From Micromonospora sp. 15K316 (GTDB lineage Bacteria > Actinomycetota > Actinomycetes > Mycobacteriales > Micromonosporaceae): a stretch of DNA of 64,000 bases. Below the pieces are notes generated by a model. The model did not search any database and had not been told where the DNA came from. It was given only the letters and a program-made list of their open reading frames with translations. Location: assembly GCF_004348525.1 (NCBI RefSeq), contig NZ_SMKG01000013.1, forward strand, positions 1-64,000. Direction: 5' to 3'. A program made the translations under genes and the position numbers. Below are positions 5,030-34,231 of this stretch, one piece after another (positions within the stretch are counted from its first letter, which is position 1; each line of letters starts with the position of its first letter).

Positions 5030-5078
5030 TCATTGAAATCGGGGTGATGCCGGGTCCGGGACGCCCCGACTTCAATGA
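5030..5078. repeat. imperfect 17-bp inverted repeat between the pemK-like gene and the serpin
   Basis: TCATTGAAATCGGGGTG (5030-5046) and CGCCCCGACTTCAATGA (5062-5078) pair at 15 of 17 positions around a 15-nt loop. It lies in the 244-nt gap between divergently transcribed genes, so an operator or repetitive palindrome is more likely than a terminator. The arm shares the 12-mer ACGCCCCGACTT with the terminator near 2508-2519. Nothing else is recognisable in this gap. Confidence 0.55.
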
Positions 5079-5166
5079 AGACGAGTTGACCTTCGCGAAC
5101 CTTGGCGGCGCGGGATACCGCGGCGGGGCTGACGCGAGGGCGGCCAGCGGGCACAGTGGGGCGGTG

Positions 5167-6519: not shown

Positions 6520-12035
<5,516 letters not shown>

Positions 12036-12039
<4 letters not shown>

Positions 12040-15158: not shown

Positions 15159-15346
15159 GACGCCGTCTCCCGTACGCTCCGCGGCCGCATGTCGGTCCAG
15201 ACGGTGTCGACGTGCGCCAGGCACTCCTCGCGGCTGCCGGTGAACCCGGCCTCGTGCCAGCCCGCGGGCAGTTCCCGGTCGGTCGACCAGATCGAGTACT
15301 GCTCCTCGTCGTTGCGGACGACGAGGAATCGGGGTTCGGCCATCAC
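15155..15346 (-). CDS. MbtH-like NRPS accessory protein
   Basis: A 63-residue MbtH-like protein. It keeps the family signature: [20 protein letters not shown], then [19 protein letters not shown] and WTDMRPRS, including the conserved Trp residues. These proteins bind NRPS adenylation domains and are needed for their solubility or activity. One copy probably serves all four A domains of the cluster. It overlaps both neighbours by 4 nt, so its translation is coupled to the dioxygenase and to the Asn module. The usual SxW-P motif reads SIWST here, a small departure. Confidence 0.97.
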
Positions 15347-16296: not shown

Positions 16297-16322
16297 GGGT
16301 TCTCCAACTCCTGTTCTCATGG

Positions 16323-19300
16323 TCAGGCGCGCGGCAGTCGCGGGATGGCGGGGATGGCCGCGGCGGTCGGCGGCTCGTCGGTGGCGGGAGCGGCGGCGCG
16401 CAGCTCCTCGATCCGGGCGGCGAGGCCGCCCACGGTGGGAGTCTCGAAGAGGCTGCGCATCGGCAGCCGGACACCGGTGGCCTTACGCATCGCCGCGATC
16501 AGCTGCACCGCCACCAGCGAGTTGCCGCCGAGGGAGAAGAAGTCGTCGTCGACCCCCACCTCGGCCACCCCGAGGGCGTCCCGCCACACCTGGGCGAGGG
16601 CGATCTCCAGCTCGCTGCTCGGCGCGGCCGATCCGGCCCCGGACGCGGCCGGAAAGGCGGCGGCCTCCGACTCCACCTCGAGGTTCTCCGTGGTGACCCG
16701 GCCGGCCCGGTCGCGGATCTCGGCCACCGGGCGGGTGGCGATGACCACCTGCGCCCCGAGCCCGGCGGTGAGGCTGCGCCGGAACGCCTCCGCCCCGTCC
16801 ACCGGCCGGATGTCCTCAGCCGGCCCGGCCGGCGTCCCCTCGGCCGGCGTGGTCGCGGTCAACCCGCCGGTCACCGCGCCCTGATCGACCCGGCGCAGCA
16901 CGAAGTCGCTGATCGCGACCAGCTCGTGGCCGGCCTCGTCGCGCAGCCACAGGTCGGCGGAGACCACCTCGTCGGTGGCGGCGGCCCGGTGCCGCAGGTG
17001 GCTGGTGAAGCGCGCCGGCAGCGGCCCGCGCACCACGATCCGGCCGTACGACAACGGCAGGTAGGTGCCGGAGCCCTGGCCGCGACCGAACGCCGTGGCC
17101 ACGTCGAGCAGGGCCGGGTGCAGACCCCACGCGGACAGGTCGCCGGCCGCCTCGGCGGGTGCCTCGACGCGCGCCAGCTCCTCCCCCTCGCCGAGGTGGT
17201 GCTCCCGCAGCGCCTTCCACCGTGGACCGAACGTCAGCATGCTGGTACGACCGCGGCCGAACGAGGCGTCGTCGTCGACGCGGCGGCCGGAGACGGTCGC
17301 CTCCCGCGCGGGCGGGGCCGGCTCGGTGGTCCAGGCGGCGCTGCCGTGCACGTGCGTCCGCGACTGCCCGCCGGCGAGGCTGCGCACCGTGAAGTCGACG
17401 CCCTCCCCGGTGGGGGTGAGCTCGACCCGGTACTGCGCCAGCGTGCCGTCCGGCACCGCGAACGGTTCGAGGAAGACCACGTCGCGGAGCTCCACCACCG
17501 CCTCGGCGGCGGGGGCGGGCACGGCGGCGGCCACCGCGGCGCGTACCGACTCCAGGTGCGCGGTGCCCGGCACCACCGGCACTCCGCCGATGCGGTGCTC
17601 GTCGAGCAGCCAGTGGGTGGCGGCCGAGACCAGCCCGTGCAGGACGGTGCCGTCCGGTCCGGTGACCCGGGTGGTGAGCACCGGGTGGTCGACGCTGCTG
17701 GTCACCGTGTCCCGGCCGGCCGCGCGGAAGCCGGCCGGCACCTCGGTCTCGACGGCCATGCCGACCTCCGCCCAGCCGCCCCAGTTCTGGGACAGCACCG
17801 GGGCCTGCCAGCCCTGGCCGGAGCGGGCGTGCGCGTCCAGGAAGGCGTTGGCGGCGCAGTAGTCCACCTGCCCGAACCCGCCGATCACCGCGGTGATCGA
17901 CGAGCAGAGCACCACGAAGTCCAGCGGAAGGTCACCGAAGACCTGCGCCAGCGCGAGCGTCCCGGCGATCTTCGGCGCGAGCACCCGTTCCGCCTCTGCC
18001 CGCTGCTTCACCTCGGCCATGCCGCCGCCGGGCAGGCCGGCCGCGTGCACGATGCCGTCGATCCCGCCGTACGCCTCCTCCGCGGCGGCCCGCACCCGGC
18101 GCAGGGCGTCGGGGTCGGTGACGTCGGCGGCGAGCACCAGCACCTGGGCGCCGGCGGCCTCCATCCGGCGGATCGCCGCGATCGCCCGCCCGGACCGGTC
18201 GTCGCTGCCGTGCACGGCGAGGTGGTCGTCCCACTGGTCGCGCGGCGGCAGCCCGGAGCGGGCCAGCAGCACCAGCCGGGCCCGCGCCCGCCGGGCGAAG
18301 TCCTCGGCGAGGGTGATGCCGATGCCGCCCAGACCGCCCGTGATCACGTACCGGCCGCCGTCGCGTAGCGCGCCCGGCTCACCCTCGGCGTCCAGGGTTA
18401 CCTGCTCGTAGTCCGCCACCCAGCGGCGAGCGCCCCGCAGCGCCAGCTCGGCCCGGGCCGGGTCGTGCGGGCGGCGCACTTCGGCCACCAGGGCCTGGCC
18501 GCCGTCGTCGGTCGGGTCGGCGTCGACCAGCCGGACGGCGAGCCCGGGCAGCTCGGCGGGGAGCACCCGGGCCAGCCCCGCCAGGGTGGCGTGCTCCGGC
18601 CGGACCAGGTCGTCGCCGCGTACGTCGCCGACGCCGGCGGTGACCAGGTCCAGCGTGACGGTCTCCTCGGCGGCGGTCACGCCGGCGCCGGCGAGCGCCT
18701 GCACCAGGTGCAGCGCGCTGAAGAAGCCCCGTTCCTGCGCGGCCCAGGTCGCCGTGAGGTCGGTGCCGGTGGGCGCACCGTCCAGCGTGAACGCGTGCAC
18801 GATCCGGGTCGGTACGCCGTCGGCGGCGAGCGCGGCGACCAGCGCGTCGTGGTCCTCCCGTGCGCCGGGGCGCAGCCGGTAGCCGGTCGGAGTCGCGGCG
18901 AACCCGTCGCCGGGGCGTACCTCCACCGGGTCGGCGCCGGCGGCCCGCAGCCCGGCGAGCAGCGCCTCGCCGCGCGGACCGTCGACGAGCACCAGGCAGC
19001 GGCCCAGCGGCGCGGTGCCCGGCTGCGGGGCGGCCTGCCGCCAGACCGGCACGGCGAACCACTCCGGCAGCGGGCGCGGCCCGGTCTCCACCGCCGCCGT
19101 CACCTGCTGCTCCGGGTCCGGGTCGACCCAGTAGCGGCGCCGCTCGAACGGGTAGGTGGGCAGCGGCACCCGCCGGGCCTGCGGATCGGCGCCGAGCCGC
19201 AGCGGTGTGCCGGCGCACCAGAGCACGGCGGCGGCGCCGAGGAGGGTGGCCAGGTCGCCGGTGGTGTCGCCGGGGCCGGGGAGGCTGCCCAGCGGGGTGA

Positions 19301-21791
19301 GCCTCCGCTGCTCGGGCGAGGCCTTGGCGACCTGCATGCGGGCGAGGTTGGCCAGCTGTTTCCCGGGCCCGCACTCGACGAGCTGCCAGGTGCCCTCGCC
19401 GAGCAGGGTGGCCACGCAGTCCCCGAAGCGCACCGGCCGGCGCAGGTGCGACGCCCAGTACGCCGGGTCGGTGGCCTGCTCGTCGGTGATCCAGGTGCCG
19501 GTGACGTTGGAGAGGAACGGCACCGCGGGCGGGCGCAGGGTCACCGACGCCATCAGCGCGGTGAACTCGCCGAGGATGGGCTCCATCATGGGTGAGTGGA
19601 AGGCGTGCGAGGTGCGCAGCAGCTTGCTCTTGCCCTTGAGCTGCTCGGCGAAGGCGGCGACGGCCGCGGTGTCGCCGGCCACCACGCAGGTGCCGGGGCC
19701 GTTGACGGTGGCGACGGCCAACCCTTCGGGTAGCCGCTCGGCGATCGCCGACTCGTCCAGCGAGACGGCGAGCATCGCGCCGGCCGGGAGGGACTGCATG
19801 AGCCGGCCGCGGGCGGCCACCACCCGCAGCGCGTCGGGGAGGCTGAGCACCCCGGCCACGGTCGCGGCGACGTACTCGCCGATGGAGTGCCCGATCATCG
19901 CCGCCGGCCGCGCACCGGCCTCCTGCCAGAGCCGGGCCAGCGCGTACTCGATCACGAAGAGGGCGGGCTGCGTGTAGCGGGTCTGCGTCAGCTTCTCGCC
20001 CGCCTCCGGCTCGCGGTCCAGGATCAGGTCGCGGAGGTCCAACCCCAGCTCGGGGCGGAGCAGCTCGGCGCACTCGTCGACGGTCGCCGCGAAGGCGGGC
20101 TCCTCGGCGTAGAGCTGCGCGCCCATGCCGGCGTACTGGGCGCCCTGGCCGGAGAAGAGGAACGCCAGCCGGGGTGCGCTCCCCTCGGCCACGCCGCGCT
20201 GCACCCGTCGCGGGTTGCCGAGAGCGGCGACCGCGTCGGTCAGGTCGGTGACGGCCACGGCCGCCCGGTGCGGGTACTCCCGCCGGCCCACCCGCAGCGT
20301 GTGCGCCACGTCGGCGAGGTACTCCGGACCGGCGTCGGCGGCCTCGACGAGGCGTGCGGTGAGCCGCCGCACCGCGTCGTCGAGTGCGCCGGCGGTCTGC
20401 GCCGAGACGTGCAGCAGCTGCGCCGGACGCACCCGGCGCGGGCTGCGGTACGCCGCCGGCGCCTGCTCCAGCACCACGTGGGCGTTCGTGCCGCCGATGC
20501 CGAACGAGCTGACGCCGGCGCGGCGCGGAGCGTGCTCGGTGTCCCACTTGGTGAGGGTGTTCGCCACGTAGAACGGGGTGTCGGCGAAGTCGATCGCCGG
20601 GTTCGGCGTCTCGTAGTTGATCGTCGGCGGGATCAGGCCGTGCTCCATCGCGAGCACGGTCTTGATGACGCTCACGATGCCGGAGGGCTGGCTGAGGTGG
20701 CCGATGTTGGACTTCACCGAGCCGATGCCGCACCAGCCCCGGTCGTCGGTCTCCCCGCCGTACACCGCGGAGAGCGCGGTCACCTCGATCGGGTCACCCA
20801 GGGCGGTGCCGGTGCCGTGCGCCTCGACGTAGCTGATGGTGCGCGGGTCGACGCCGGCCATCGCGACGGCCTGGGCGATCGCCTCCGTCTGGCCGTCGAT
20901 GCTCGGGGCGGTGAAACCGACCTTGCCGGCGCCGTCGTTGTTGATCGCGTTGCCGAGTACGACCGCCCGGATCGCGTCGCCGTCGGCGATCGCGTCGGAG
21001 AGCCGCTTGAGCAGGGTGACCCCGGCCCCGCTGCCCCACACGGTGCCGTTCGCGCCGGCGTCGAAGGGCCGGCACCGCCCGTCGGGCGAGGTGAAGCCGT
21101 CCATGCCGAGGTAGCCGACGTGCGGCAGTTCGATGTTCACGCCGCCGGCGAGCGCCATGTCGCACTCGCCGTTGCGCAGCGCCTCGCAGGCCAGGTGGAA
21201 CGCGACAAGCGAGGTCGAGCAGGCGGTGTGCACGGTGAGGCTCGGGCCGCGCAGGTCCAGCCGGTACGACACGTTGGTCGCCACGTAGTTCGGCGAGTTG
21301 CCGGTGGCGATGGAGACGGCGCTGTGCGGGCTGCCGCCGACGCGCTTGTTGCGCAGCACGTTCCGGTGCAGGTACATGTTGCCGCCGGTGCCCGCGTACA
21401 CGCCGACCGCGCCGTCGTAGCGGGACGGGTCGTAGCCGGCGTCCTCCAGCGCCGCGTGGCAGGACTCCAGGAAGAGCCGGTGCTGCGGATCGGTCATCGC
21501 CGCTTCCCGCTCGGTCATCCCGAACAGCGCGGCGTCGAACTCGTCGTACCCGTCGACGAGTGGGGCGCGATTGACCCAGCCGGGGTCGTCCACCTCCTCG
21601 ACGGAGGCGCCCCGGGCCAGCTGCTCCTCGCGGGTGAGCTCGGTGACCGACTCCACCCCGTCGACCAGGTTGCGCCAGAACTCGTGCACGTCCGCCGCGC
21701 CGGGCAGGCGGGCGGCCATCCCGACGATCGCGATCGGCTCGATGCCGTCGCCGTCGCCGGACAGGTCGGTTGCGGTCGGAACGTCCATCAC
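16323..21791 (-). CDS. type I PKS, KS-AT(malonyl)-KR-DH-ACP
   Basis: An 1822-residue single-module polyketide synthase. KS: active Cys in HTACSTS (~192), His in EAHGTGT (~324) and NIGHL (~364). AT: GHSIGEY (~635) and HAFH (~730), the malonyl-CoA signature. [10 protein letters not shown] (~1150) with the [15 protein letters not shown]...AAN catalytic stretch (~1295), so active. [12 protein letters not shown] (~1400), a full HxxxGxxxxP motif, but the second motif reads [10 protein letters not shown], without the usual Gln/His four residues after Asp. Carrier: GGNSLVAV (~1755). KR lies before DH, the reverse of the standard order. It should add one malonate and leave a beta-hydroxy or alpha,beta-unsaturated unit. 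It starts 8 nt after the A-T-C-T gene; the first codon may be GTG 21791 or ATG 21788. Confidence 0.95.
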
Positions 21792-21799: not shown

Positions 21800-24700
21800 T
21801 CAGTGCGTGGTGCCGCCGGGGCGGCGGGGTGGATTACGACGGGTACGGCTGCGCCGGGCGGCGGCCCGCAGGGCAGCGCGGGCCAGCTCCGGCCGGTCGG
21901 CGGCGCCGTCCAGGCCGGCGGCGAGCGCCCGGATCGTGGGATGGCGGAACAGGTCGAGCATCTTGATCGAGCGACCGGTGGCCGCGGTCAGCCGGGCGTG
22001 CACCTCGGCCAGGGCGAGCGAGTGCCCGCCGATGTCGAAGAAGTTGTCGGTGACGCTCACCCGGTCGCGCTCCAGCACCTCCCGCCAGATGCCGGCGACG
22101 AGCTCCTCGGTCTCGGTGAGCCCGTCGGGGCCGGTCGGTGGGACGACCCGCGGCGGCTCGGTGGCGGCCACGGTCATGGCGCCGAGCTGCGCCACCCGGA
22201 CGGTCGGGCGGGGCAGCTCGGCGGCCACCTCGCGGGCCGGCGCGTCGGGGTTGGCGGCCAGCACGCCGAGCAGGACGGCCAGGTCGGCGAGGAGCGCCTC
22301 GATCCGCTCCCCGTCGAAGAGGTCGGGGTTGTGCACCACCTCGACACCGACCCGGCCGGCGCGCTCGACCACGTAGACGGTGAGGTCGAAGGGCGAGCCG
22401 GGCTTCGGCACCGGTGCCGGCTCGCCGACGAGGCCGGTCAGCGCCAGCCGGGGCGGCGCGAAGTTGAGCACGTTGAAGAGCACCTGCACCAGCGGCGCGC
22501 GGGCGGTGTCCCGGCCGACGCCGAGCGCCTCGACGATCCGCTCCAGCGGCGCGCCCGGGTGCGCGGTCACCTCGTGCAGCTCGGCGGCGCACCGCTCGAC
22601 CAGCTCGGCGAAGCTCGCGCCGCCGGTGCGTACCCGGACCGGCACGGTGTCGATGAAGAAGCCGACCACGTCGTCGAAGGCGGCCAACCGCCGGTCGGCG
22701 ACGATCGCGCCGAGCACGTGGTCGTCCCCGCCGGTGAGCCGGGCGAGCAGCTCGCCGAAGCCGGCCAGCAACACCGCGGCGACAGTGGTGCCCAACCGTT
22801 CGGCCAGGGTCCGTACCGCCCGATCAGTCGCCTCGGGCAACCGTACGGCGGCCTCGGCCCCGACGTAGGTCTGCACGGCGGGTCGCGGGCGGTCCCGGGG
22901 CAGGTCCAGCACAGTCGGCGCGCCCTCGAGGTGCGCCGTCCACCAGGCCAGATCCGTCTCTCCCCGGCGCCGGTCCCGCTCCGCCCGCCACACCGCGTAG
23001 TCCGCGTAGCCGGCGCTCAGGGCGGGCAGCCGAGGCGTACGCCCCGCCACCGCCTGCGCGTACGCGGCTTCGAGGTCGTCGTAGAGGACCGCCTCGGACC
23101 AGCCGTCGAAGACCGCGTGGTGCAGGGTGATCGCCAGCACGTGCTCGGCCGGGCCGAGCCGGTAGACGGTCACCTGCCAGGGCGGCCCGGTGGCCAGGTC
23201 GAACGCGTGCCCGGCCCCGGCGGCGAGCATCCCCGCCAGCTCCCGTTCCTGGTCGGCGCCGCCGGTCAGGTCGACCACCGGCACCGGCACGTCGGTCGGC
23301 TCCGCACGGACGGCGTAGGGCACGCCACCGGTCTGCGGGATCCGCCAGCGCAGCACGTCGTGCCGCTCCGCCACCGCCCGCAGCGCCGCCCCGAGCGCCG
23401 TGACGTCGAGCGGACCGTGCAGCCGGTGCGCCACCGCGATGTTGTACGGCGCGCTGGACGGGGCGAGCTGGTCGACGAACCAGAGCCGCCGCTGCGGCGC
23501 GGAGAGGGTAGGCGGGTTGCCGGTGGTGAGCCCGTCCCCGTCGGTCGCCGCGGCGGCGGCGACCCGCTCGAGCAGGCCGGCGAAGGTCCGGCCGGCGAGG
23601 ACGTCCCGCGTGTCGACGTGCCGGCCCAACTCGGCCCGCAACGCGGCGACCAGCCGCATCGCCGCGATCGAGTTCCCACCGGCGGCGAGGAAGTCGGTCT
23701 CCTCAGTGGGAGCGGCACCGAGCAGCCGCGACCAGATGCGCCGCACCGCCGCGTCGAGCGGCTCGTCCGGGTCGACCGCCGACCGCGCCGGATCGTCGGC
23801 CCGGCCGGCGGTGGCGAGCGCACGCAGCGCCGCCCGGTCCACCTTGCCGCTGGTAGCGCTGACCGGCAGGTCGGCCAGGCGCAGCACCCGCGCCGGCAGC
23901 ATCGCGGCGGTCAACCGGGACCCGGCGTGGCTACGCAGCCGCTCGTCGTCGGGCCCGTCCATCGGGGTGACGAACGCGACCAGCTCCGTGCCGCCCGGCC
24001 CCGGCACCGCCTCGACCACCACCCGGTCCACCCCGGGCAGCTCGGCCAGCACCGTCTCCACCTCGCCCAGCTCGATCCGCTGGCCACGGATCTTGACCTG
24101 CCGGTCGGCTCGGCCGAAGTAGACGATCCGGCCGTCCGCCGCCTGACGGACGAGGTCACCGGTGCGGTACAGCCGCGCCCCCGGCTCGCTGGAGAACGGG
24201 TCCGGGACGAACCGTTCGGCGGTCAGCCCCGGGCGGTTGAGGTAGCCGTCGGCCAGGCCGGGGCCGCCGATCAGCAGCTCGCCGGTCTCCCCCGGCGGCA
24301 CCGGACGCAGGTCGGGGTCGACCACGTAGGCGCGGTGGTTGGGCAGCGGCCGGCCGATCGGCACCGGATCGGTCACGTCCGCGGTCAGCGGGCCGCTCAC
24401 CGCCAGTACCGTGGTCTCGGTCGGCCCGTACCCGTTGAGGAACGTACGCCCCGGCGCCCATCGGGCGGCCAGCTCGGCCGGCACCGCCTCGCCGCCGCAG
24501 AACACCACCTTCCAGTCGGGCAGCTCGGCCGGGTCCAACATGGAGAGCACGGTGGGCGTGATGAAGCCCCAGTTGACCTGGTGTGCGGCGATGAACCGGG
24601 CGAGCCGGACCGGGTCGGCTCGGTCGTCCGCGCCGATCAGCTGCACCGAGCCGCCCAGCAGCAGCGGAACGAAGAGGTCCATCGTGACCGCGTCGAAGCC

Positions 24701-25315
24701 CAGCGACGCGACGCCGAGGCTGCGCACCCCCGCGTCCGCGCCGCTGATCGCCGCCACCCCGTGCACGAACTCGACCACGTTCCGGTGGGTGGTGAGCACC
24801 CCCTTCGGACGTCCGGTCGAGCCCGAGGTGAAGAGCACGTACGCCGGGTCGCCGGGCCGCGCAGGGCAGGGCGCGAGAGGTGCGGGGCCGGGCAGCCCGA
24901 GCGCCTCGATTCCCGGCGCGCCGGCGAACTCGACCTCGGCGGCGTCGCCGATCACCACGGTCACGCCCGCGTCCGCCGCGATCTCCCGCAGCCGGCGGCG
25001 CGGGCCACCCGGTTCCAGCGGCACGTAACACGCCCCCGCCAGCAGCACGCCGAGCACCGTGGCGACCAGCTCCGGCCGGCGCTGCCCGCAGATCCCGACC
25101 CGGCTCTGCCGGCCGGCTCCGCGTGCCCGCAGCGCCGCCGCGACCCCGGCGGCCCGCTCCAGCAGCTCCCGGTAACTGAGCCGGTCGTTCCACTGGCGCA
25201 CCGCCACCGCGTCTGGGGTACGGGCGGCCTGCGCGACGACCAGCTCGGCCAGCGTCGCGTCCGGCCAGGGCATCGGCTCCCCCTGCACCGCGCTGATGGA
25301 CAGGATGTCGGTCAC
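21800..25315 (-). CDS. NRPS A-T-C-T (second carrier domain without its own A domain)
   Basis: An 1171-residue NRPS. A domain first: [11 protein letters not shown] (~162), GFDAVTMDLF, NGYGPTETT (~297), YRTGDLVR. Specificity residues read D-A-M-F-F-G-G-V-L-K, which I cannot assign; the pattern suggests a hydrophobic residue. First carrier at GGNSIAAM (~549). C domain with catalytic HHAVFDGW (~733). Second carrier at GGHSLALA (~1096), near the end, with no A domain before it. A leading A-T without C resembles a loading module. The GTG at 25315 overlaps the upstream stop by 4 nt and has GGGGAGAG 5 nt before it; the frame extends further upstream but is non-coding there. How the last carrier is charged is an open question. 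Confidence 0.93.
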   Translation of the reverse strand: MTDILSISAVQGEPMPWPDATLAELVVAQAARTPDAVAVRQWNDRLSYRELLERAAGVAAALRARGAGRQSRVGICGQRRPELVATVLGVLLAGACYVPLEPGGPRRRLREIAADAGVTVVIGDAAEVEFAGAPGIEALGLPGPAPLAPCPARPGDPAYVLFTSGSTGRPKGVLTTHRNVVEFVHGVAAISGADAGVRSLGVASLGFDAVTMDLFVPLLLGGSVQLIGADDRADPVRLARFIAAHQVNWGFITPTVLSMLDPAELPDWKVVFCGGEAVPAELAARWAPGRTFLNGYGPTETTVLAVSGPLTADVTDPVPIGRPLPNHRAYVVDPDLRPVPPGETGELLIGGPGLADGYLNRPGLTAERFVPDPFSSEPGARLYRTGDLVRQAADGRIVYFGRADRQVKIRGQRIELGEVETVLAELPGVDRVVVEAVPGPGGTELVAFVTPMDGPDDERLRSHAGSRLTAAMLPARVLRLADLPVSATSGKVDRAALRALATAGRADDPARSAVDPDEPLDAAVRRIWSRLLGAAPTEETDFLAAGGNSIAAMRLVAALRAELGRHVDTRDVLAGRTFAGLLERVAAAAATDGDGLTTGNPPTLSAPQRRLWFVDQLAPSSAPYNIAVAHRLHGPLDVTALGAALRAVAERHDVLRWRIPQTGGVPYAVRAEPTDVPVPVVDLTGGADQERELAGMLAAGAGHAFDLATGPPWQVTVYRLGPAEHVLAITLHHAVFDGWSEAVLYDDLEAAYAQAVAGRTPRLPALSAGYADYAVWRAERDRRRGETDLAWWTAHLEGAPTVLDLPRDRPRPAVQTYVGAEAAVRLPEATDRAVRTLAERLGTTVAAVLLAGFGELLARLTGGDDHVLGAIVADRRLAAFDDVVGFFIDTVPVRVRTGGASFAELVERCAAELHEVTAHPGAPLERIVEALGVGRDTARAPLVQVLFNVLNFAPPRLALTGLVGEPAPVPKPGSPFDLTVYVVERAGRVGVEVVHNPDLFDGERIEALLADLAVLLGVLAANPDAPAREVAAELPRPTVRVAQLGAMTVAATEPPRVVPPTGPDGLTETEELVAGIWREVLERDRVSVTDNFFDIGGHSLALAEVHARLTAATGRSIKMLDLFRHPTIRALAAGLDGAADRPELARAALRAAARRSRTRRNPPRRPGGTTH

Positions 25316-27621
25316 CCGTTCTCTCCCCGGTAGCTCATCGGATCGGTGATCTGCAGACGCAGCTCGCTCACGTGGCCCCGCCCGCGCGCATCGCGCACCC
25401 AGGCGTCGGCCGGCTCCGGGAGCAGCTCGCTCACCACCACGGACACGTCCGGTCCGCTCTTCGCCGCGGCGTCGACCATGGCGCAGAGCGACTGGGCGTG
25501 CAGCGGGGCGGTCAGGTCGGCGTAGCACGGCTTGACCTCGGTGCCGACCTTGACGAAGACCCGCTCGGGCAGGCCGTGCCGCTGCCGCCAGCGCCGGACC
25601 GCGAGGAACCGCTCGGCGTCGCCGGCCACGCCGGCCAGGCCGCTCTCCCCGGCCGTGGTGCGCCAGGTGCGCCGCGCCACCACCAGCCGGTCGATGGTGA
25701 TCCGGGGCGTGTGCGGGGCGGGCGCGACGAGCTTGAAGCTGTCCAGCAGCAGCGCGCCGAGCAGGTGCCCGAAGATCTCCACCAGGGGCCAGCGCCCCCC
25801 GTCCGGCAGCACGGCGACCAGCTCGACCCCGTCGGGTTCGACCCGCACCTCGGTGGCGGCGACGAGCCGCTCGACGTCCGCACCACGCGCGGTGTCGATG
25901 CCGAGCTGCCGGTCGGCCGGTCCGACGGAGGCGTACGTGGTGCGTGTGGTGATCCGGGGGAAGCCCTCGGGGTAGAGCACCCGCGCCCGGGCCGGCCCGA
26001 GGTCGGTGTCGAACCCGGCGCGCAGCGCCGACGGGTCGGGATGGAACGGGGTGAAGACCGCGCTGTCGAACGGCGTGTACGCCGGGTGCAGCTCGCCGAG
26101 CACCAGCAGGAACTCACCGCGGTTGATCGCGGCCACGTCGGCGGCGCCGATCGTCACGTCGGGGCTGTGGATCCGGGCCGACGGCCAGCCGGGGCCGGAC
26201 GCCGCGAAGACCCGGGCCACCCGCTCGGCCAGATCCGCGCTGCGCAGCCGCAGCTCCGGCTCGCCGGGAGCCACCGAGTCGAGGTCGAACAGCTCCGCCC
26301 AGCGGGCGGTGAACTGGGTGCTGACCGCGGTGAGCGGGCCGTCCGGCGCGAGCAGCAGCCCCTGGGCCAGCGACCAGACGTCGGCCAGCCGCACCGGACC
26401 GTCGCCGCGCAGCTCGGCGTACAGCTCGTCCAGCAGCCGCCGCAGCGCCGCGCCGATCTCGGCGGTGAGCCAGCGTGCGGCCTGCAACACGATCGCCAGC
26501 GGCGCGGCGAGCGCGTCCAGGACCGCCGCGCCGACGGTGACCTCCAGGTCCCGGGCGGTCTCCTCGTAGACGACCGTGCGCCCCGCGTACATCTGCCCGC
26601 TCTGCCGAACGGCCGGTCGACCGGTGACGGCGGTGAACTCCGAGTTCAGCGCGGCGAGCGCGGCGCGGAGCCGGTCCGGGTCGCCGGCCGCGTCGGCGAC
26701 CGCGTCCCGGGCCGCGCAGAGCCGGTCGAAGCCGGCGGTCACCTCGGCCCGCACCGCCGGTTCCCCGATGGCGGCCAACCGGTCGCGCAGCACCTGCTCG
26801 GCGCGCGGGCTGATCGGCAGCCCGGCGTCCCAGGTCAGCAGGGACCGCTCCACCAGCCGCTCCAGCAGCAGGAACCCGTCGGCCGCCGAGCGCAGCGGGA
26901 GCTCGGCGTCGTGGCGGGCCCGGTCGACCACCGCGGTGGCCGGAGTCCGCCCGTCGCAGTACGCCAGCAGCCGCGCCTCCGCGGCGTTGAGCTGCACCGG
27001 CGGGTGCAGCGGCCGGCGCAGCTGCCGCCCCGAAACGCTCAGGTGCGGGGGGAGCGCCGGCGCCCACCACCGCCGCACCGCCAGGTCCTCGGCGAGCCGG
27101 TCGGCGTACGCGATCAGCGCCCACGCCTCGAAGTGGACCGCCCGGCGGGACACCAGCCCCGGCCCGGGCCGCAGCCGGGTGGCCGGCTCGTCGGGGTCGA
27201 CGTGTCCCCAGCAGACCGGGCCGAAGAAGCCGATGGTCTCCGCCTTGCCGCAGTAGCGCTGCCAGTACCGCAGCAGGCTGGACTCGCGCTCGCGCCGTCG
27301 CCAGTTGCGGGCGGCCGGGTCGGTGCGCAGCAGCCCGTCCAGCGCGACCAGCATGTCCGGGTTCTGCCAGGTGACCGCCTCCCGCAGTTGCGGGTCCGCG
27401 GCGATCGCGTCGGCCTGCGTGGACGAGTCGAGCTGGGCCTTCTGGAACTCCTTGTCGAACAGCTCGCGGCTGCCCCGGCCGGCCAGCAGTCCGTCGGCGG
27501 CGGCGGCCGCCTCCGGCGCGGCGAAGGCGGCGAGCCCCGCGGCCGGGAAACCGGCGGTACGCAGCACGACGTCGCGCCACACCCACCAGCCGGTGTCGCC
27601 GAGCGGGACGCGGTGGCTCAC
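25312..27621 (-). CDS. LanB-like protein (lantibiotic dehydratase N-terminal domain), stand-alone
   Basis: A 769-residue protein of the lantibiotic dehydratase N-domain family, the part of LanB enzymes that transfers glutamate from Glu-tRNA to Ser/Thr. Family landmarks include HRVPLGDTGWWVWRDVVLR at the start, RYWQRYCGKAETIGFFGP (~122-139, the equivalent of the canonical RxTPFG region), GQMYAGRTVVYEETARDL (~345), ARIHSPDV, VLGELHPAY, TPRITIDRLVVARRTWR and a closing VSVVVSELLP. It ends there: the elimination domain (SpaB_C) of full LanBs is absent, as in small LanBs and peptide aminoacyl-tRNA ligases (PEARLs). No lanthipeptide precursor is nearby. It is a close paralogue of the LanB half of the upstream protein. 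Function is inferred to be tRNA-dependent acylation of a carrier-bound substrate. Confidence 0.88.
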   Translation of the reverse strand: MSHRVPLGDTGWWVWRDVVLRTAGFPAAGLAAFAAPEAAAAADGLLAGRGSRELFDKEFQKAQLDSSTQADAIAADPQLREAVTWQNPDMLVALDGLLRTDPAARNWRRRERESSLLRYWQRYCGKAETIGFFGPVCWGHVDPDEPATRLRPGPGLVSRRAVHFEAWALIAYADRLAEDLAVRRWWAPALPPHLSVSGRQLRRPLHPPVQLNAAEARLLAYCDGRTPATAVVDRARHDAELPLRSAADGFLLLERLVERSLLTWDAGLPISPRAEQVLRDRLAAIGEPAVRAEVTAGFDRLCAARDAVADAAGDPDRLRAALAALNSEFTAVTGRPAVRQSGQMYAGRTVVYEETARDLEVTVGAAVLDALAAPLAIVLQAARWLTAEIGAALRRLLDELYAELRGDGPVRLADVWSLAQGLLLAPDGPLTAVSTQFTARWAELFDLDSVAPGEPELRLRSADLAERVARVFAASGPGWPSARIHSPDVTIGAADVAAINRGEFLLVLGELHPAYTPFDSAVFTPFHPDPSALRAGFDTDLGPARARVLYPEGFPRITTRTTYASVGPADRQLGIDTARGADVERLVAATEVRVEPDGVELVAVLPDGGRWPLVEIFGHLLGALLLDSFKLVAPAPHTPRITIDRLVVARRTWRTTAGESGLAGVAGDAERFLAVRRWRQRHGLPERVFVKVGTEVKPCYADLTAPLHAQSLCAMVDAAAKSGPDVSVVVSELLPEPADAWVRDARGRGHVSELRLQITDPMSYRGENG

Positions 27622-30600
27622 CGGGCCACCTCCATGGCGTCGTCCACGATGTGCAGCCGCAGCTCGCTGAAGTAGCGCCGGCCGTGCGTGTCGGGCACCC
27701 AGGCGTCGTCCGGTGTCGGCAGCATCTCGCTGACCACCAGGGACACGTCGTCGCCGCCGTCGCCGCGGGCGGCCCGCACCATCGCGCAGAACATGGTGGC
27801 GAACGCCGGGCTGCTCAGGTCCACGAAGCAGGGCTTGGTCTCGGTGCCGAGCTTGACGTACACCTGCTCGGGCAGGTCGAGCCGCCGTCGCCAGGCACGG
27901 ACGGCCAGGAAGCGGTCCCGCTCGCCGGTGACCGTGCCCAGCCCGCTCTCGCCGACAGTGGTCCGCCAGGTCTGCCGGGCCACCACGAGCCGGTCCAGCG
28001 TGATCCGTGGCGTGTACGGCGCGGCGGCCACCAGCTTGAACCCGTCGACGGCGTGCGCGGCGAGCAGACCCGCGAAGATCTCGGTCAGCGGCCAGCGCGC
28101 GCCGTCCGGCGCGGTCGCGACCAGCCGGCCCGCCTCCTCGGCGACGGTCACCGCCACCGTCGGCAGCACCCGCTCCGGCTCGGCGCCGGGCGCCGGCAGG
28201 AAGGCCAACTGCCGGTCGGTCGGGCCGGTCAGCGCCTCGGCGACCCGGCTGGTGCGCCGGGGCCAGTCGGTGGGGAAGAGCAGCCTGATCCGCCGCTCGC
28301 CCAGGTCCTCGGCGAGCGCCGCGCGCAGCCGCTCCACGTCCGGGTGCGCCGGGGTGAAGACCTCGCAGTCGAACGACGGCCAGGCGGCGTGCAGCTCACC
28401 GAGGACCACGGTGAAGTCGCCACGGCCGAGCGCCTCCGCGTCGGCCGCGCAGATCTGCAGGTCGGGGCTGTGCAACCGGGCGTTGCTCCACTCCGGCCAG
28501 ACGGTCGGGAAGGCCTCGGCGACCCGCGCGGCCAGCTCCGCCACGCGCAATCGGACCTCTGTCGTCCCCGGCGGAAGCGCGTCCAGCCCGAAGAGTCCCG
28601 CCCACCGGCCGGCGAACTCGGTGGCCACCGTGTCGACCGGGCGCTCCCCCTCACCCCAGAACAGCCCCTGGGCGAGGAACCACAGGTCGGAGAGGGCCAC
28701 GGGCGCGTCCCCGGCCTCGGCGCGCAACTCCTCGTAGAGCTCGCGGAACACCGCTCCGTACGCCTCCTCGAGGGCGCCGGCGAGCCAGCGCGCGGCCTGG
28801 AGCAGCACGCCGAGCGGCCCGGAGATCACCTCCAGCAGCGGCCCGCCGAACACGACGTCGAGCTCGCGGCTGGTGTCCTCGTAGCAGAGCGTCCGCCCGG
28901 CGTACATCTGGCCGTCGCGCCGGCGCGGTGGCAGGCCGGTGAGCACGGTGAACGTCTCGTCGAGCGCGTCCAGCGCGACCCGCAGCCGGTCCGGGTCGCC
29001 GGCGGCCGCGGCGACCTCGTCCCGGGCCGCGCGGAGCTGGTCGAAGCCGTCCCGGGCGGCCTCCCGGGCCGCCACGTCGCCGATGCCGTCGATCCGCTCC
29101 CGGAGCACGCCCTCGGCGGCGGGGCTGACCGGCAGCCCCGCGTCCCAGCTGACCAGTTCCCGCTCCACGAGGCGGTCCAGCAGGGCGTAGCCGTCCTCGG
29201 GGCGGCGCAGCCCGAGCGCCGGGTCGGCGACCAGGTCCCGCGCCGGGCGGTGGCCGTCGGCGGCGGCGAGCAGCGCCGCCTCGACCGGGGTGACCGGCAC
29301 CGGCGGGCGGCCGGGCCGCTGCACCGCGCGGTCGACGAGGCGCAGGTGCGCGGCGAGGCGCGGGGGCCACCAGGCCCGTACGGCGAGGTCCTGGCCGATC
29401 CGGTCGGCGTACGCGGCCAGTGTCCACGCCTCGAAGAGCACCCAGCGGCGGCGGGTGAGCGTCGGGCCGGGACGGACCTCGGCGGTCACCGGCCGGGCCG
29501 GGTCCAGGGTGGCCCAGCAGCTCGGGCCGAAGAAGCCGACTGTCTCGTTCTTGCCGCAGTAGCGCTGCCAGTACTTGAGCAGGGCACGTTCCCGGTCCCG
29601 CCGGCGTACGTTGCGGGGCGCGTCCGGTGCGGCCCGGTGCAGCCCGTCGAGGGCGGGGAGCATGTTGCGGTTCTGCCAGGTGACCGCCTCGCGGAACAGC
29701 GGGTCGCCGGCCAGCTCGGTGATCCGTCGGGCCCCGGCCGCCACGGCCTCGGCGAACTCCTTGTCGAACTGCTCGCCGCCGGTCCCGGTGGCGAGCAGTT
29801 CGTCGGCGGCGGCCGCGGCCTGCGGGGCGGAGAGCATGGTGAGCCCGTCGGCCGGGAAGCCGGTGCTGCGCAGGATGGCGTCCCGCCAGACCGACCAGCC
29901 GGTGTCGCCCAGCGGCACCCGGTGCCCGCCGGTCGCCGGGGCCGCACCGCCGGAGGCGGTGGTTCCGCTCGGCCCGCCGGTGGGCCGGTCCCGCGTGGCC
30001 TGATCGGTGGCCCCGGCCGGCTCGGCGGCGAGCGCCGCGTCCAGGTCGGCGCGGATCGCGGCGAACAGCTCCTCGGCCGCGTCGTGCAGGAAGAAGTGCC
30101 CGCCGGCGATCTCGTGCAGCGTGAAGCCGGCGGCGCTGTGCCGGGCCCAGGCCGTGCTCTGCTCACGGGTCACCGCCCGGTCATGCCGGCCGGTGAAGGC
30201 CACGATGGGCACCGGCAGCGGCTCGCCCGGCACGTACCGGTAGCCGTCGACCCGGCCGAAGTCGGCGCGCAGCAGCGGCAGCAGCAGCTCCACCAGCTCG
30301 GGGTGCTCGAGGACCTCGGCGGGGAGGCCGCCGCCGTCGCCGAGGCGGCGCAGCAGCTCGTCGTCGTCCACCGTGGAGAGCCCGTCGAAGAGGCTGGGCG
30401 CCGTCACGTGCGGGGCGCGGGCACCGCCGACGTAGAGCCGCAGCGGCAGCGGGCGTCCCCCGCGGCGCAGCTCCCGGACCACCTCGAAACCGAGCCGGCC
30501 CCCCATCGAGTGGCCGTACAGGGCGTAGGGGCCGGTGGCCCGCTCGGCGACGGCCCGCGCGACGTCCGCCACCTGGAACCGGGGATCCTCGGTGATCCGG

Positions 30601-30758
30601 TTCTCCCGGCCCGGCAGCTGCACCGGCAGCACCTCCACGCCAGGGCCGAGACCGGCCGACCAGTGCCGGAACGCGCTGGCCCCGGCACCGGCGTAGGGCA
30701 GGCAGAAGAGCTGCACCGGGGCCACGCGACGGCCACCGGCGGAGACGAACCAGTTCAC
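27618..30758 (-). CDS. type II thioesterase fused to a LanB-like protein
   Basis: A 1046-residue fusion. Residues ~1-255 are a type II (editing) thioesterase: FCLPYAGAGAS at the oxyanion-loop region, the nucleophile elbow GHSMGG (~84) and His in GGHFFLHD (~221). After a Gly/Pro/Thr-rich linker (~255-280) comes a full LanB N-domain-like region beginning HRVPLGDTGWSVWRD, with RYWQRYCGKNETVGFFGP (~395), GQMYAGRTLCYEDTSREL and TPRITLDRLVVARQTWR, ending with VSLVVSEMLP. There is no elimination domain. The GTG at 30758 overlaps the upstream stop by 4 nt and has GAGAGG about 8 nt before it. The thioesterase could clear mischarged carriers or free the LanB product. Fusion of these two domains is unusual. 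Confidence 0.87.
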   Translation of the reverse strand: MNWFVSAGGRRVAPVQLFCLPYAGAGASAFRHWSAGLGPGVEVLPVQLPGRENRITEDPRFQVADVARAVAERATGPYALYGHSMGGRLGFEVVRELRRGGRPLPLRLYVGGARAPHVTAPSLFDGLSTVDDDELLRRLGDGGGLPAEVLEHPELVELLLPLLRADFGRVDGYRYVPGEPLPVPIVAFTGRHDRAVTREQSTAWARHSAAGFTLHEIAGGHFFLHDAAEELFAAIRADLDAALAAEPAGATDQATRDRPTGGPSGTTASGGAAPATGGHRVPLGDTGWSVWRDAILRSTGFPADGLTMLSAPQAAAAADELLATGTGGEQFDKEFAEAVAAGARRITELAGDPLFREAVTWQNRNMLPALDGLHRAAPDAPRNVRRRDRERALLKYWQRYCGKNETVGFFGPSCWATLDPARPVTAEVRPGPTLTRRRWVLFEAWTLAAYADRIGQDLAVRAWWPPRLAAHLRLVDRAVQRPGRPPVPVTPVEAALLAAADGHRPARDLVADPALGLRRPEDGYALLDRLVERELVSWDAGLPVSPAAEGVLRERIDGIGDVAAREAARDGFDQLRAARDEVAAAAGDPDRLRVALDALDETFTVLTGLPPRRRDGQMYAGRTLCYEDTSRELDVVFGGPLLEVISGPLGVLLQAARWLAGALEEAYGAVFRELYEELRAEAGDAPVALSDLWFLAQGLFWGEGERPVDTVATEFAGRWAGLFGLDALPPGTTEVRLRVAELAARVAEAFPTVWPEWSNARLHSPDLQICAADAEALGRGDFTVVLGELHAAWPSFDCEVFTPAHPDVERLRAALAEDLGERRIRLLFPTDWPRRTSRVAEALTGPTDRQLAFLPAPGAEPERVLPTVAVTVAEEAGRLVATAPDGARWPLTEIFAGLLAAHAVDGFKLVAAAPYTPRITLDRLVVARQTWRTTVGESGLGTVTGERDRFLAVRAWRRRLDLPEQVYVKLGTETKPCFVDLSSPAFATMFCAMVRAARGDGGDDVSLVVSEMLPTPDDAWVPDTHGRRYFSELRLHIVDDAMEVAR

Positions 30759-33700
30759 CGCATGCCTCTCTGAGGGGGATCGATCCAGTACCGCTGCCGC
30801 TGGAAGGGGTAGGTCGGCAGGCCGGTACGGCGTACCGCGCCCTCGGGGTGCAGCGCCGCCCACTCCACGTCCTGCCCCGCCACCCAGGCGGTGGCGAGTT
30901 CACGCAGCTCGCCGGGCTCGCCCGCGACCCGGGCGCCGCTCTCCAGCAGGTCGTCGAGGGCGGCGACCGCGCCCGCCAGGTCGGTGACCACCACCGCCGC
31001 CCGGCACGCGAAGACCCGCCGGCCGAGCGCCAGCGTGGCGGCGACCTCGGCCAGCGCCGGCGCGACGCCGGAGAGGTGCCCCCGCAGCCGGGTCAGCGCG
31101 TCCCGCAGCGCGGCCGGCGTACGCGCGGAGACCGGCAGCAGGTACGCCCCGGGGGACGGCGGCCCGTCGACCGGTTCGACCGGGGGCGGCTGCTCGACCA
31201 CGACGTGCGCGTTGGTGCCGCCCAACCCGAACGAGCTGACCCCGGCGACCCGGCGCGGCGCCTCCGGCCAGTCCCGCACCTTGGTCGGTACGTAGAACGG
31301 GCCGGCGGCCAGGTCGATCTCCGGGTGCGGGCGCGTGTAGTGCAGGTTCGGCGGGATGGTTCCGTGCTGGACGGCGAGCACCGCCTTGATCAGGCCGGCG
31401 ATCCCGGCGCCGGCGTCCAGGTGCCCGATGTTGGTCTTCACCGAACCGAGCGCGCAGCTCTCGGCGGGGCTGCCCGCGTAGACCTCGTGCAGCGCGGCGA
31501 CCTCGATGGCGTCGCCGAGCGGGGTGCCGCTGCCGTGCGCCTCGATGAACCGGACCTCGCCGGGGGCCACCTCGGCGGCGGCGAGCGCGTTCGCCACCGC
31601 GGCGGTCTGCCCGGCCGGGCCCGGTACCGCGTAGCCGGCCCGGTCCGGGCCGTCGTTGGTGACCGCCCAGCCGGGCAGGATCGCGTAGATCCGGTCGCCG
31701 TCGGCCTGGGCGTCGGCGAGCCGGCGCAGCGCGACCACTCCGACTCCGGAGCCGAACCCGGAGCCGTTGGCGGCCTCGTCGAAGGCGCGGCACCGCCCGT
31801 CGGGTGAGGCGAGCCCGCCGGCCGTGTGCCGGTAGCGGGGCCCGGTGACGTTGACCCCGCCGGCGAGCGCGATGTCGCACTGGTAGTCGGCGAGGCTCTG
31901 CGCGGCGAGGCAGACCGCGACCAGGGAGCTGGAGCAGGCGCTCTGCACGGCCACCGCCGGCCCGGTCAGCCCCAGCCGGTAGGCCACCTGCCCGGGCAGG
32001 TGGTCGGTGAACTGCCGGCCGAGCAGCCGGGCCTCCCAGTCGTCCGGGTCCACGTCGCCGACCACGGCCGGGTTGTCCATCAGGTGGAACAGGAAGTAAC
32101 GGTTGGCGGAGGTGGCCGAGAAGACGCCGACCAGGCCGGGGAAGCGGCTCGTGTCGTGCCCGGCGTCCTCCAGCGCCTCCCACGCGGTCTCCAGGAAGAG
32201 CCGGTGCTGCGGGTCGGTCCGGGCCGCCTCCTGCGCGCCGAAGGAGAAGAACTCCGCGTCGAAGTCGGCGACGCCGTCGAGCCGGCCGGCGGCCCGTACG
32301 TGGCGGGGGTCGGCGCGCAGCGTCGGCCCGATGCCGAGCGCGACCAGTTCCGCGTCGGTGTGATCGTGGATCGAGTCCACCCCGGCGCAGAGGTTCCACC
32401 AGAAGGTGGCCACGTCGGGCGCGCCGGGGAAGCGGCCGGCGAGGCCCACCACGGCGATCTCGTCGCCGGTGTACTCGCGGGCGGCCACCGGCGGCGCGGG
32501 TGGGGTGGCCAGCGCGGGGGCCGGTGCCCGGTCGGCGGGCGGATCGTCGAGCAGCCGGGCCTGCGCGGCGACGGTGGGGTGCTCGAAGAGACGCAGCATG
32601 GGCAGCCGCACCCCGAACCGTTCGGCGATGCGCTGCTGCACCTGGCCGAGGAGCAGGGACTGGCCGCCGACGTCGAAGAAGCTGTCGGTGCGGCCGACGG
32701 CCTCGCGCCCGAGCACCACGCGCCAGATGTCGTGCACGGCCCGCTCGGTCGGCGTGGCCGGGCCGGCGCCGGGCGACACCGTGTGCTCCGGGTCCGGCAG
32801 CGCCCGCTCGTCGACCTTGCCGGTGACGGTGAGCGGGAACTCGTCGACCGGCACCACGGCCCGGGGCAGCGCGTACTCGGGCAGCTGGCGGGCGAGCGCG
32901 GCGCGCAGGGCGGCCGGGTCGAGCGGGCCGGCGACCGGCCGGACGTACGCCAGCAGCTCGCCGTCGCGGGCGACGGCCCGTACGCCCCCGACACCCGGTT
33001 CGGCGGCGAGCAGCGCCTCGATCTCGGTCAGCTCGATCCGGTGGCCGCGCACCTTGACCTGCCGGTCCAGCCGGCCGAGGCAGCGCAGCTCGCCGGTGGG
33101 CAGCCGCTCGCCGAGGTCTCCGGTTCGGTACGCCGCCACCCCGTCCGCGTCGGTGAAGAACCGGTCGCTGTCCCGGTCGAGGTATCCGGGGGCCAGGTGG
33201 GCGCCGCGTACCACGATCTCGCCGTCCTCGGCCAGCCGCAGCTGGTAGCCGGGGAGCGCGGTGCCGATCGGCAGCGGCCCGGTGGCGGCCGGGTCGGCCT
33301 CCGCCAGCGGCGTCGCGTACCGGGCGGCGAAGGTCATCTCGGTGGCGCCGTAGCCGTTGACCAGCAGGCATCCCGGGGCGAACCGCCCCCGCCCGCGGGA
33401 GGCGTCGCCGTGGGTGGCCTGTTCCCCGCCGAGCAGCACCACCCGCACCCGGTCGAGCCGCTCGACGCCGGGCGTGTCCAGCAGGAACCGGTAGACGGTG
33501 GGCGTCGAGTGGTAGACGGTCACGCCGTGTCGGGCGAGCTGCTCGACGGCGTGCGCCAGCCCGTGGCGGCGCAGGTCGACCGGGATGACCGCGGCGCCGG
33601 TGAGCAGCGCCGGGTAGAGGTCGGGGATGGCGGCGTCGAAGCTGAACGAGGCGAGCAGGCTGAGCCGGTCGGCGGGGCCGATGTGGAGGGTGTCGATCTG

Positions 33701-34231
33701 GTTGCGCACCACGTGCAGCAGGTTGCGGTGGGTCTGCCCGACCGCTTTGGGCACGCCGGTGGAGCCCGAGGTGAAGAGCACGTAGGCCAGCGCGTCCGCG
33801 TCGACCCGCACCGGGCGCAGCGGGGCGGGGCGCGGGTCGTCGAGCACGAGGACGCGGGTGTCCGGCCGGTCGGCGACGAGGGCCCGCGCGAGCTCCTCGT
33901 GTTCGGCCGCGCAGAGGACGGTCGTCACCGCGGCGCCGGTGAGCATGTGCCGCAGTCGGAGGCGCGGGAAGCCCGGGTCGAGCGGCACGTACGCGCAGCC
34001 GGCGGCGAGCGTGCCGAGGATGGCGGCGATGGTGCGCGTCCCGTGCGCGGTGAGCAGCGCGACGCGCTCGTCGGTCCGGACCCCGCCCGTGACCAGCGCC
34101 TCGGCGTACCCGCCGGCGAGGCCGGCCAGCTCGGCGTAGCTGAGCCGGCGGGTCTCGGCGAGGACGGCCGGATGGTCGGGACGGGTGGCGGCGACATCGC
34201 CGAAGCGATGGATCAGCGTCTCGTTCGTCAT
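30755..34231 (-). CDS. NRPS-PKS hybrid A-T-KS with an AT-deletion scar
   Basis: An 1158-residue protein, first gene of the operon. A domain: TSGSTGVPKAV (~152), SFDAAIPDLY, NGYGATEM (~293, with Ala replacing Pro of YGPTE), YRTGDLGE. Specificity residues read D-A-P-H-L-G-G-F-A-K, which I cannot assign. Carrier at GGQSLLLG (~524). KS with Cys in SACSSS (~765), EAHGSGT (~897) and NIGHLD (~935), all catalytic residues present. After the KS come a KS-AT linker (SARTPAALRDALTRLRGHL) and then directly a post-AT linker (WVAGQDVEWAALHPEG, LPTYPFQRQRYW); the ~300-residue AT is missing, and no ACP follows. The ATG at 34231 lacks a good Shine-Dalgarno, but the conserved A domain begins at once. Confidence 0.93.
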   Translation of the reverse strand: MTNETLIHRFGDVAATRPDHPAVLAETRRLSYAELAGLAGGYAEALVTGGVRTDERVALLTAHGTRTIAAILGTLAAGCAYVPLDPGFPRLRLRHMLTGAAVTTVLCAAEHEELARALVADRPDTRVLVLDDPRPAPLRPVRVDADALAYVLFTSGSTGVPKAVGQTHRNLLHVVRNQIDTLHIGPADRLSLLASFSFDAAIPDLYPALLTGAAVIPVDLRRHGLAHAVEQLARHGVTVYHSTPTVYRFLLDTPGVERLDRVRVVLLGGEQATHGDASRGRGRFAPGCLLVNGYGATEMTFAARYATPLAEADPAATGPLPIGTALPGYQLRLAEDGEIVVRGAHLAPGYLDRDSDRFFTDADGVAAYRTGDLGERLPTGELRCLGRLDRQVKVRGHRIELTEIEALLAAEPGVGGVRAVARDGELLAYVRPVAGPLDPAALRAALARQLPEYALPRAVVPVDEFPLTVTGKVDERALPDPEHTVSPGAGPATPTERAVHDIWRVVLGREAVGRTDSFFDVGGQSLLLGQVQQRIAERFGVRLPMLRLFEHPTVAAQARLLDDPPADRAPAPALATPPAPPVAAREYTGDEIAVVGLAGRFPGAPDVATFWWNLCAGVDSIHDHTDAELVALGIGPTLRADPRHVRAAGRLDGVADFDAEFFSFGAQEAARTDPQHRLFLETAWEALEDAGHDTSRFPGLVGVFSATSANRYFLFHLMDNPAVVGDVDPDDWEARLLGRQFTDHLPGQVAYRLGLTGPAVAVQSACSSSLVAVCLAAQSLADYQCDIALAGGVNVTGPRYRHTAGGLASPDGRCRAFDEAANGSGFGSGVGVVALRRLADAQADGDRIYAILPGWAVTNDGPDRAGYAVPGPAGQTAAVANALAAAEVAPGEVRFIEAHGSGTPLGDAIEVAALHEVYAGSPAESCALGSVKTNIGHLDAGAGIAGLIKAVLAVQHGTIPPNLHYTRPHPEIDLAAGPFYVPTKVRDWPEAPRRVAGVSSFGLGGTNAHVVVEQPPPVEPVDGPPSPGAYLLPVSARTPAALRDALTRLRGHLSGVAPALAEVAATLALGRRVFACRAAVVVTDLAGAVAALDDLLESGARVAGEPGELRELATAWVAGQDVEWAALHPEGAVRRTGLPTYPFQRQRYWIDPPQRGMR

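Follow-up and report, generated by a model that had tools for sequence, protein, structure and literature searches.

The stretch of DNA analysed here (the window: 64,000 nucleotides (nt), positions 1 to 64,000 of contig NZ_SMKG01000013.1 from Micromonospora sp. 15K316) carries on its minus strand a tight operon of nonribosomal peptide synthetase (NRPS) and polyketide synthase (PKS) genes, among which two adjacent genes encode proteins related to the LanB enzymes. The first gene of the operon (30755..34231) encodes, by its Pfam domains, a protein with adenylation (A), thiolation (T) and ketosynthase (KS) domains. It is followed by TE-LanB1 (27618..30758; 1046 amino acids (aa)), in which a thioesterase (TE) precedes a LanB region, and by LanB2 (25312..27621; 769 aa), a paralogue of LanB1 consisting of a stand-alone LanB N-domain that resembles the peptide aminoacyl-tRNA ligases (PEARLs). 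An A-T-C-T protein, where C denotes a condensation domain, comes next (21800..25315). The three junctions between these four genes are 4-nt GTGA overlaps, in line with the translational coupling to NRPS and PKS genes described in a first-pass annotation of this DNA, and the following two intergenic gaps measure 8 and 2 nt. These overlaps and gaps therefore leave no room for a small gene, and inspection of the gaps between the operon genes revealed neither a LanA precursor nor a PLALA-like scaffold peptide gene, so that the earlier statement that the operon holds no small peptide gene also stands. Gaps across the operon range from -4 to 8 nt, while the open frames of two genes further down, for a TauD-family dioxygenase and a C-A-T module, overlap by 80 nt. 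No tRNA genes were found in the window.

Both proteins match the LanB family PF04738, with 94.2 bits (E-value 7.5e-27) for LanB1 and 112.5 bits (2.2e-32) for LanB2 at a cut-off of 28, and neither matches the elimination domain PF14028 at E <= 0.01. The LanB regions share 56-57% identity, and both contain the motif HRVPLGDTGW and a YWQRYCGK...GFFGP block. The comparison of these two Pfam families, which the first-pass annotation had suggested, thus confirmed its description of two paralogous LanB N-domain proteins lacking an elimination domain. PF14028 is absent from the contig of the window (C44), and a search of the whole genome found it only on two other contigs, C233 and C424. That annotation had omitted the thioesterase at the start of LanB1 (residues 16-238; PF00975, 1.3e-33), which appears to be of a type II-like kind, joined to the LanB part by a flexible linker. 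Its nucleophile elbow reads GHSMGG. In related fused thioesterases, the elbow GHS is present in 28 of 28 sequences and the histidine motif GGH[FLM]F in 26 of 28, with at least one genome counted twice, and the domain looks intact. NCBIfam offered no model for LanB2, and the TE of LanB1 matched only the BchO hydrolase, far below the cut-off.

The structure of LanB2 was predicted with high confidence (pLDDT 93.5, pTM 0.92). A fold search with this model returned MibB (E = 9e-24), TbtB (1e-21) and NisB (3e-17), with E-values ranging to 4e-16, and a second comparison matched TbtB (6ec8) with a Z-score of 20.4 across 650 residues. These matches place the relation to LanB beyond chance, and the modelled fold is the glutamylation-domain fold that the window LanBs have in common with NisB, MibB and TbtB. 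Only the fold comparison revealed these three proteins; a sequence search of solved structures, using LanB2 alone or a profile, did not find them. ATP-grasp ligases ranked below the LanBs, with Cp1B and a trypanosome glutathione synthetase both at Z 6.8, and RimK matched residues 649-734 at Z 5.6. Too weak to count alone, these matches agree with the ATP-grasp-like site that the accessible text of PMC11962472 attributes to PEARLs. In the model of TE-LanB1, the LanB part was mostly predicted with pLDDT above 90, while the TE and the linker were poorly predicted (TE mostly 40-80). LanB2 also contains a winged helix (residues 181-266, about 26824-27081 of the window, minus strand) that weakly resembles RRE domains (8t19, Z 5.7 over 73 residues; PqqD-like 5sxy, E = 0.028), and which is kept although the operon has no leader peptide for it to bind.

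A ligase was weighed against a dehydratase in a residue alignment of both window proteins with 129 other homologues, among them some with no NRPS genes in view (L135, L157 and L164), five PEARL stand-ins and two LanBs from the same genome as controls. The stand-ins come from loci of two genomes, L180 and L181, the first of which holds an 86-aa peptide with the sequence APLALA, resembling the PLALA end of known PEARL substrates as given in the accessible part of PMC11962472. The control on contig C233 is fused to PF14028, and that on C424 lies beside a PF14028 gene. We compared 17 positions, in LanB2 numbering R21, Y119, R122, K126, Y345, R348, D488, E510, H512, R640, R650, F689, E695, K697, D702, E753 and R755. 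LanB1 is identical to LanB2 at 16 of them, the difference being a tyrosine at 689, and the stand-ins agree throughout, except for one with H510 and E640 and two with D510. All 17 are also kept by 24 LanB1-type (one genome represented twice), 15 LanB2-type and five outgroup sequences, save F/Y at 689 and a single D702N. R122, D488, E510 and H512 are invariant among the 129 homologues.

Both window proteins have the residues assigned to the ATP site in PEARLs, and the spacings match those of BhaB7 (Y205/R208, Y426/R429, E575/H577, F755/K763 and E813/R815). Of ten ATP-site residues named for BhaB7 in the available text of PMC12945691, the C233 control lacks eight and the C424 control five. The two groups differ at D488, E510, H512, E753 and R755 (D558, E575, H577, E813 and R815 in BhaB7): both window LanBs carry all five, whereas both controls lack the first three and have H-x-R or E-x-A in place of E-x-R, C233 keeping only R755 and C424 only E753. 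Since residues found in LanB1 and LanB2 are largely missing from the two dehydratase-type LanBs tested, ATP-driven amide ligation is favored over glutamylation, and the better reading of the two proteins is as ATP-dependent, tRNA-fed amide ligases rather than as part of a split dehydratase.

A split dehydration, in which the LanBs would glutamylate carrier-bound serine or threonine with Glu-tRNA and an unlinked PF14028 protein would eliminate the glutamate, was part of the original proposal. The fold is indeed that of a glutamylation domain, PF14028 proteins do occur elsewhere in the genome, and the assembly line includes a serine-type module, if the A code DVWHISLIDK of the last synthetase is read as specifying serine. 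However, the PF14028 proteins are encoded on other contigs, each with its own LanBs, and the D488, E510 and H512 conserved in all 129 other homologues are missing from both dehydratase-type LanBs. We therefore consider this reading very unlikely. The window LanBs differ from class I LanB dehydratases in having neither an elimination domain nor a substrate peptide.

The residues for tRNA contact lead in the same direction as far as they can be placed. In BhaBC-Trp, R208, Y205 and R429 contact tRNA and their mutation cut activity, according to the accessible text of PMC11962472; their counterparts R122, Y119 and R348 are present in both LanB1 and LanB2, which corresponds to three of the five named tRNA-site residues. 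Of the other two, Q201, itself only a predicted contact, corresponds to position 115 (serine in LanB2, alanine in LanB1), and R197 has no counterpart that could be assigned with certainty. The Y..R pair of the tRNA helix is also seen in the two other LanBs of the same genome. On this basis, the idea in the first-pass annotation that the enzymes depend on tRNA and serve the assembly line is probably right, as three tRNA residues are kept and NRPS or PKS domains occur in nearly all related loci (see below), while the ATP-site residues speak against its other option, the split dehydration. By their published descriptions, so far as accessible (PMC11962472, PMC12945691), the scaffold-peptide PEARLs TglB, BhaB7/BhaBC-Trp and AmmB2 share with LanB1 and LanB2, by position and spacing, the ATP site and the three tRNA-contact residues, and likewise lack PF14028; in the Bha pathway, successive PEARLs can add residues in turn. 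These PEARLs, however, extend a ribosomal peptide encoded alongside them, and the window operon encodes none.

In principle, the pair could be ordinary PEARLs acting on a scaffold peptide whose gene lies in another part of the genome, since the residue set is close to the one seen in PEARLs whose locus includes a PLALA-type peptide. A search of the genome with the L180 peptide gave nothing convincing (best E 0.32; a weak test, given the very short query), and in every relative inspected the orthologous pair adjoins the A-T-KS and A-T-C-T genes, save L168, whose short contig is cut after A-T. A distant scaffold peptide is, in our judgment, a highly improbable explanation, and we retain that of ligases serving the assembly line.

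To assess how the two genes have been maintained, we compared genomes at three levels. With a threshold of E <= 0.001, LanB2 has homologues in 104 of the 160 genus genomes compared, in 137 of 300 genomes sampled from the family and in 8 of 396 sampled from the phylum. LanB1 orthologues are found in at least 65 of the 160 Micromonospora genomes, the listed match spanning the TE as well in 57 and not covering it in 8, and lower-ranking fragments may be missed. LanB2 orthologues are found in at least 57, those of G069, G098 and G101 being fragments or broken frames, and among the matches listed LanB2 never occurs without LanB1. In the eight genomes with LanB1 only, LanB2 is either missing (seven) or reduced to a remnant (one) between TE-LanB1 and A-T-C-T; the remnant, in G027, spans about 200 codons (L190, 10472-11066). 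The losses of LanB2 fall in about five places on the tree, LanB1 never being lost alone, and the tree groups the LanB2 proteins in one clade, with single TE-LanB clusters branching outside the pair. Ratios of nonsynonymous to synonymous substitution (dN/dS) of 0.20-0.36 for LanB1 and 0.25-0.52 for LanB2, from four comparisons each, indicate that both are under purifying selection, LanB2 more loosely. The same tandem layout was seen in another family of the order (L185, from G875); the cluster is therefore not confined to Micromonospora.

From these observations we propose that an NRPS-PKS line has recruited LanB1 and LanB2 as amide ligases of the PEARL type, with the TE freeing an acid to which LanB1 and then LanB2 would each add a residue, a reading to which we give about an even chance. 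The TE joined to LanB1 would hydrolyse a thioester of the assembly line to a free carboxylate. Each LanB would then use ATP to phosphorylate that carboxylate, the amine of an aminoacyl-tRNA would attack, and the tRNA would be hydrolysed off, leaving the chain longer by one residue; the first residue taken from tRNA would be added by LanB1, and a further one, which is dispensable, by LanB2. The sequences support this through the fold, the signature residues, the absence of an elimination domain and of a precursor gene, the TE elbow, the purifying selection and the repeated loss of LanB2 only. From them we infer the reaction, which carboxylate it uses, the order of the steps and which amino acids are added. 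The loss pattern is the sole basis for placing LanB2 after LanB1: with a TE that remains on the core ligase and a second ligase that is present in some genomes and absent from others, the pattern fits release, a first addition and an optional second one, and not an obligate pair. The fusion likewise favors a released acid as the substrate here.

Charged tRNA has been connected with assembly lines before. The accessible text of PMC11212132 (2024) describes SnaE, annotated as a lantibiotic dehydratase, in the NRPS-PKS cluster for threopeptin biosynthesis in Stackebrandtia nassauensis; its deletion abolished the threonine-containing products, and the threonine is added by an amide bond, with dependence on ATP and tRNA proposed. 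The same text counts about two thousand such clusters and mentions fusions to TE or thiolation domains. SnaE is a direct precedent, and the feeding of an assembly line from tRNA is therefore already in print, so the locus is not the poorly described system it was first taken for. In common with the published description of SnaE, the window LanBs have no elimination domain, lie in an NRPS-PKS cluster without a precursor, and are accompanied by a TE encoded in the cluster. They differ from it in that two ligases are present instead of one, and one is fused to a TE whereas SnaE stands alone. SnaE, moreover, acts after a reversal of the chain by a ureido-forming C domain, and the PKS/NRPS layout of its cluster is different. 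Livipeptin biosynthesis, with its L/F transferase (PMC10548850), and pacidamycin biosynthesis, with the GNAT-fold PacB (PMC12945691), likewise feed charged tRNA into an NRPS product; as far as their accessible descriptions show, these enzymes belong to other families and are read as transferring onto an amine rather than activating a carboxylate.

The mechanism outlined for SnaE depends, in the accessible account (PMC11212132), on a ureido-forming C domain, with the motif EHHxxHDG, that leaves a carboxylate inert. This motif is in none of the three C domains of the window (LHHAVFDG, VHHALFDS and KHHIVGDG), nor in three relatives read whole. The way in which SnaE obtains a free carboxylate is therefore absent here. 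A SnaE-like side extension would apply the same ligase chemistry to an inert carboxylate of a chain that is still carrier-bound, exposed for instance on a side chain or at the head group of its first unit; the TE would then have an editing role only. Action of SnaE on T-bound intermediates is drawn as one option in the available text (PMC11212132), and the kept winged helix (a weak match, Z 5.7) could bind a carrier, a role in T docking being speculative. The missing ureido-forming domain counts against this reading, as does the lack of any sign that the first A domain (DAPHLGGFAK) loads a diacid.

A wider survey bears on the same alternative. We examined 77 loci derived from the best 80 of 414 matches, several of them being the same contigs as genomes of the genus sample. 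Because the query consisted mostly of NRPS-linked LanB seeds, the counts lean towards an NRPS context and are not population figures. A, C, T or KS domains occur within the locus DNA in 74 of the 77. A C domain is present in 53, with a ureido-type motif in four, although the loci end at 10-kb flanks or contig ends and a ureido domain further out would escape; four homologues encoded next to C domains of the ureido type match LanB2 at each of the 17 positions. A TE is fused to LanB in 11 loci and a T domain in 15, and 32 contain at least two LanB reading frames. The T-LanB fusions (L103-L117), seven from Saccharothrix and five from Micromonospora, are NRPS proteins ending in T-LanB; the two examined with Pfam are C-A-T-LanB proteins with the C motif FHHAILDG. 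Small Streptomyces clusters (L102, 9566-17127; L133, L140, L144, L159 and L166) pair two LanB homologues with one free A and one free T domain; L102 also encodes a PALP enzyme, and one of the small two-LanB clusters is on plasmid p1 of S. fungicidicus. No multimodular NRPS was seen in them, though L153, L154 and L175 have one nearby. The fusions and the many Streptomyces pairings with a free carrier suit the side extension, which we regard as a possible but rather unlikely alternative to release of the acid by the TE followed by ligation.

Several points weigh against the proposed release and ligation. None of the 15 loci with a T-LanB fusion has a TE seen in the locus DNA, and members of the family are thus evidently able to function next to carriers. 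The fusion of the TE to LanB1 could be incidental, the domain being a common type II TE with an editing function, and the terminal NRPS already carries a TE of its own. In the structural comparison, the ATP-grasp matches lie below Z 8, a level at which the tool warns of a mere common arrangement. In the alignment, Y345 is kept in 86 of the 129 homologues (threonine in 42) and K697 in 87 (arginine in 42), the C424 control retains five of the ten ATP-site residues, the placement of the distant C233 control in the ATP-site columns is uncertain, and the counterpart of Gln201 is changed in both window proteins. The residues of BhaB7 and TglB were placed by spacing and through the stand-ins rather than by alignment with those proteins, and the search for a peptide beside the stand-ins covered the L180 locus. 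The count of losses depends in part on weak nodes, and G875, which belongs to another family, has a LanB1 that groups with neither clade. Lastly, SnaE was compared by description and not by sequence, since it was recognised neither in two order-wide samples nor among the best 80 matches of the contig scan, and the ligase role of LanB1 and LanB2 is a prediction from their sequences.

The remainder of the operon, assigned by Pfam and likewise on the minus strand, comprises a PKS module with the order KS-AT-KR-DH-T (16323..21791), in which the ketoreductase (KR) lies ahead of the dehydratase domain (DH), AT being an acyltransferase; a TauD-family dioxygenase (15343..16320; PF02668, 4.3e-46); a C-A-T module (12036..15422; C motif VHHALFDS) whose true start, judging by eye from the sequence, is probably further in, near 15158; and a C-A-T-TE protein with a fused transporter of the major facilitator superfamily (MFS) (6520..12039). 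The A code of the C-A-T module, DLTKVGEVGK, reads as asparagine. In the terminal NRPS, the TE elbow reads GHCGVG, with cysteine at the usual place of serine, as it does in L041, L043, L045 and L189; in L046 it reads GHCVGG. The KS of the A-T-KS protein, whose A code DAPHLGGFAK is without known specificity, is not followed by an AT. Its C-terminal linker ends in YPFQRQRYW, presumably the linker that follows an AT, as though the AT had been deleted. The last T domain of the A-T-C-T protein has no A domain, a layout conserved in relatives. A plus-strand gene (4864-6414) adjoining the operon gave a weak serpin-like match slightly below the Pfam cut-off.

The gene order A-T-KS, TE-LanB1, LanB2, A-T-C-T would also fit a step in the middle of the line, in which the TE releases an early intermediate, the ligases lengthen it and the A domain of the A-T-C-T protein (A2; code DAMFFGGVLK, C motif LHHAVFDG, which is not a ureido motif) reactivates the product back into the line. 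The A2 codes match no specificity that we can name. They do not, however, track the loss of LanB2: DAMFLGGVLK occurs with the remnant in G027 and also with LanB2 in L042 and L044. A2 also retains Asp235, which, as a rule, would hold a free alpha-amine and thus counts against such a detour. We judge it improbable and return to the release of an acid and its extension by one or two ligases.

Literature searches, from whose coverage most subscription papers fall outside, found no paper naming this pair or cluster, and a single enzyme of the class with a shown role, SnaE, which is explained through ureido chain reversal. As 53 of the 77 loci have a C domain and only four a ureido-type one, that explanation does not account for the free carboxylate in much of the class. 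Judged by its genes, a TE-fused ligase with a second, optional ligase and without chain reversal represents a new arrangement of the SnaE-type class as described in the accessible text of PMC11212132. Tentatively, and with somewhat less than even confidence, we suggest that the TE-PEARL may be a release-and-extend module, in which an acid released by the TE is extended with one or two residues by tRNA-fed ligases, without an A, C or T domain or a chain reversal, LanB2 serving over evolution as a switch that turns an additional residue on or off. If this is true, charged tRNA would be the direct source of one or two residues in a nonribosomal product. The presence of the first ligase in at least 65 of 160 Micromonospora species genomes would then amount to a natural experiment, in which the products of relatives that have LanB2 would be expected to differ by one residue from those of relatives that lack it.

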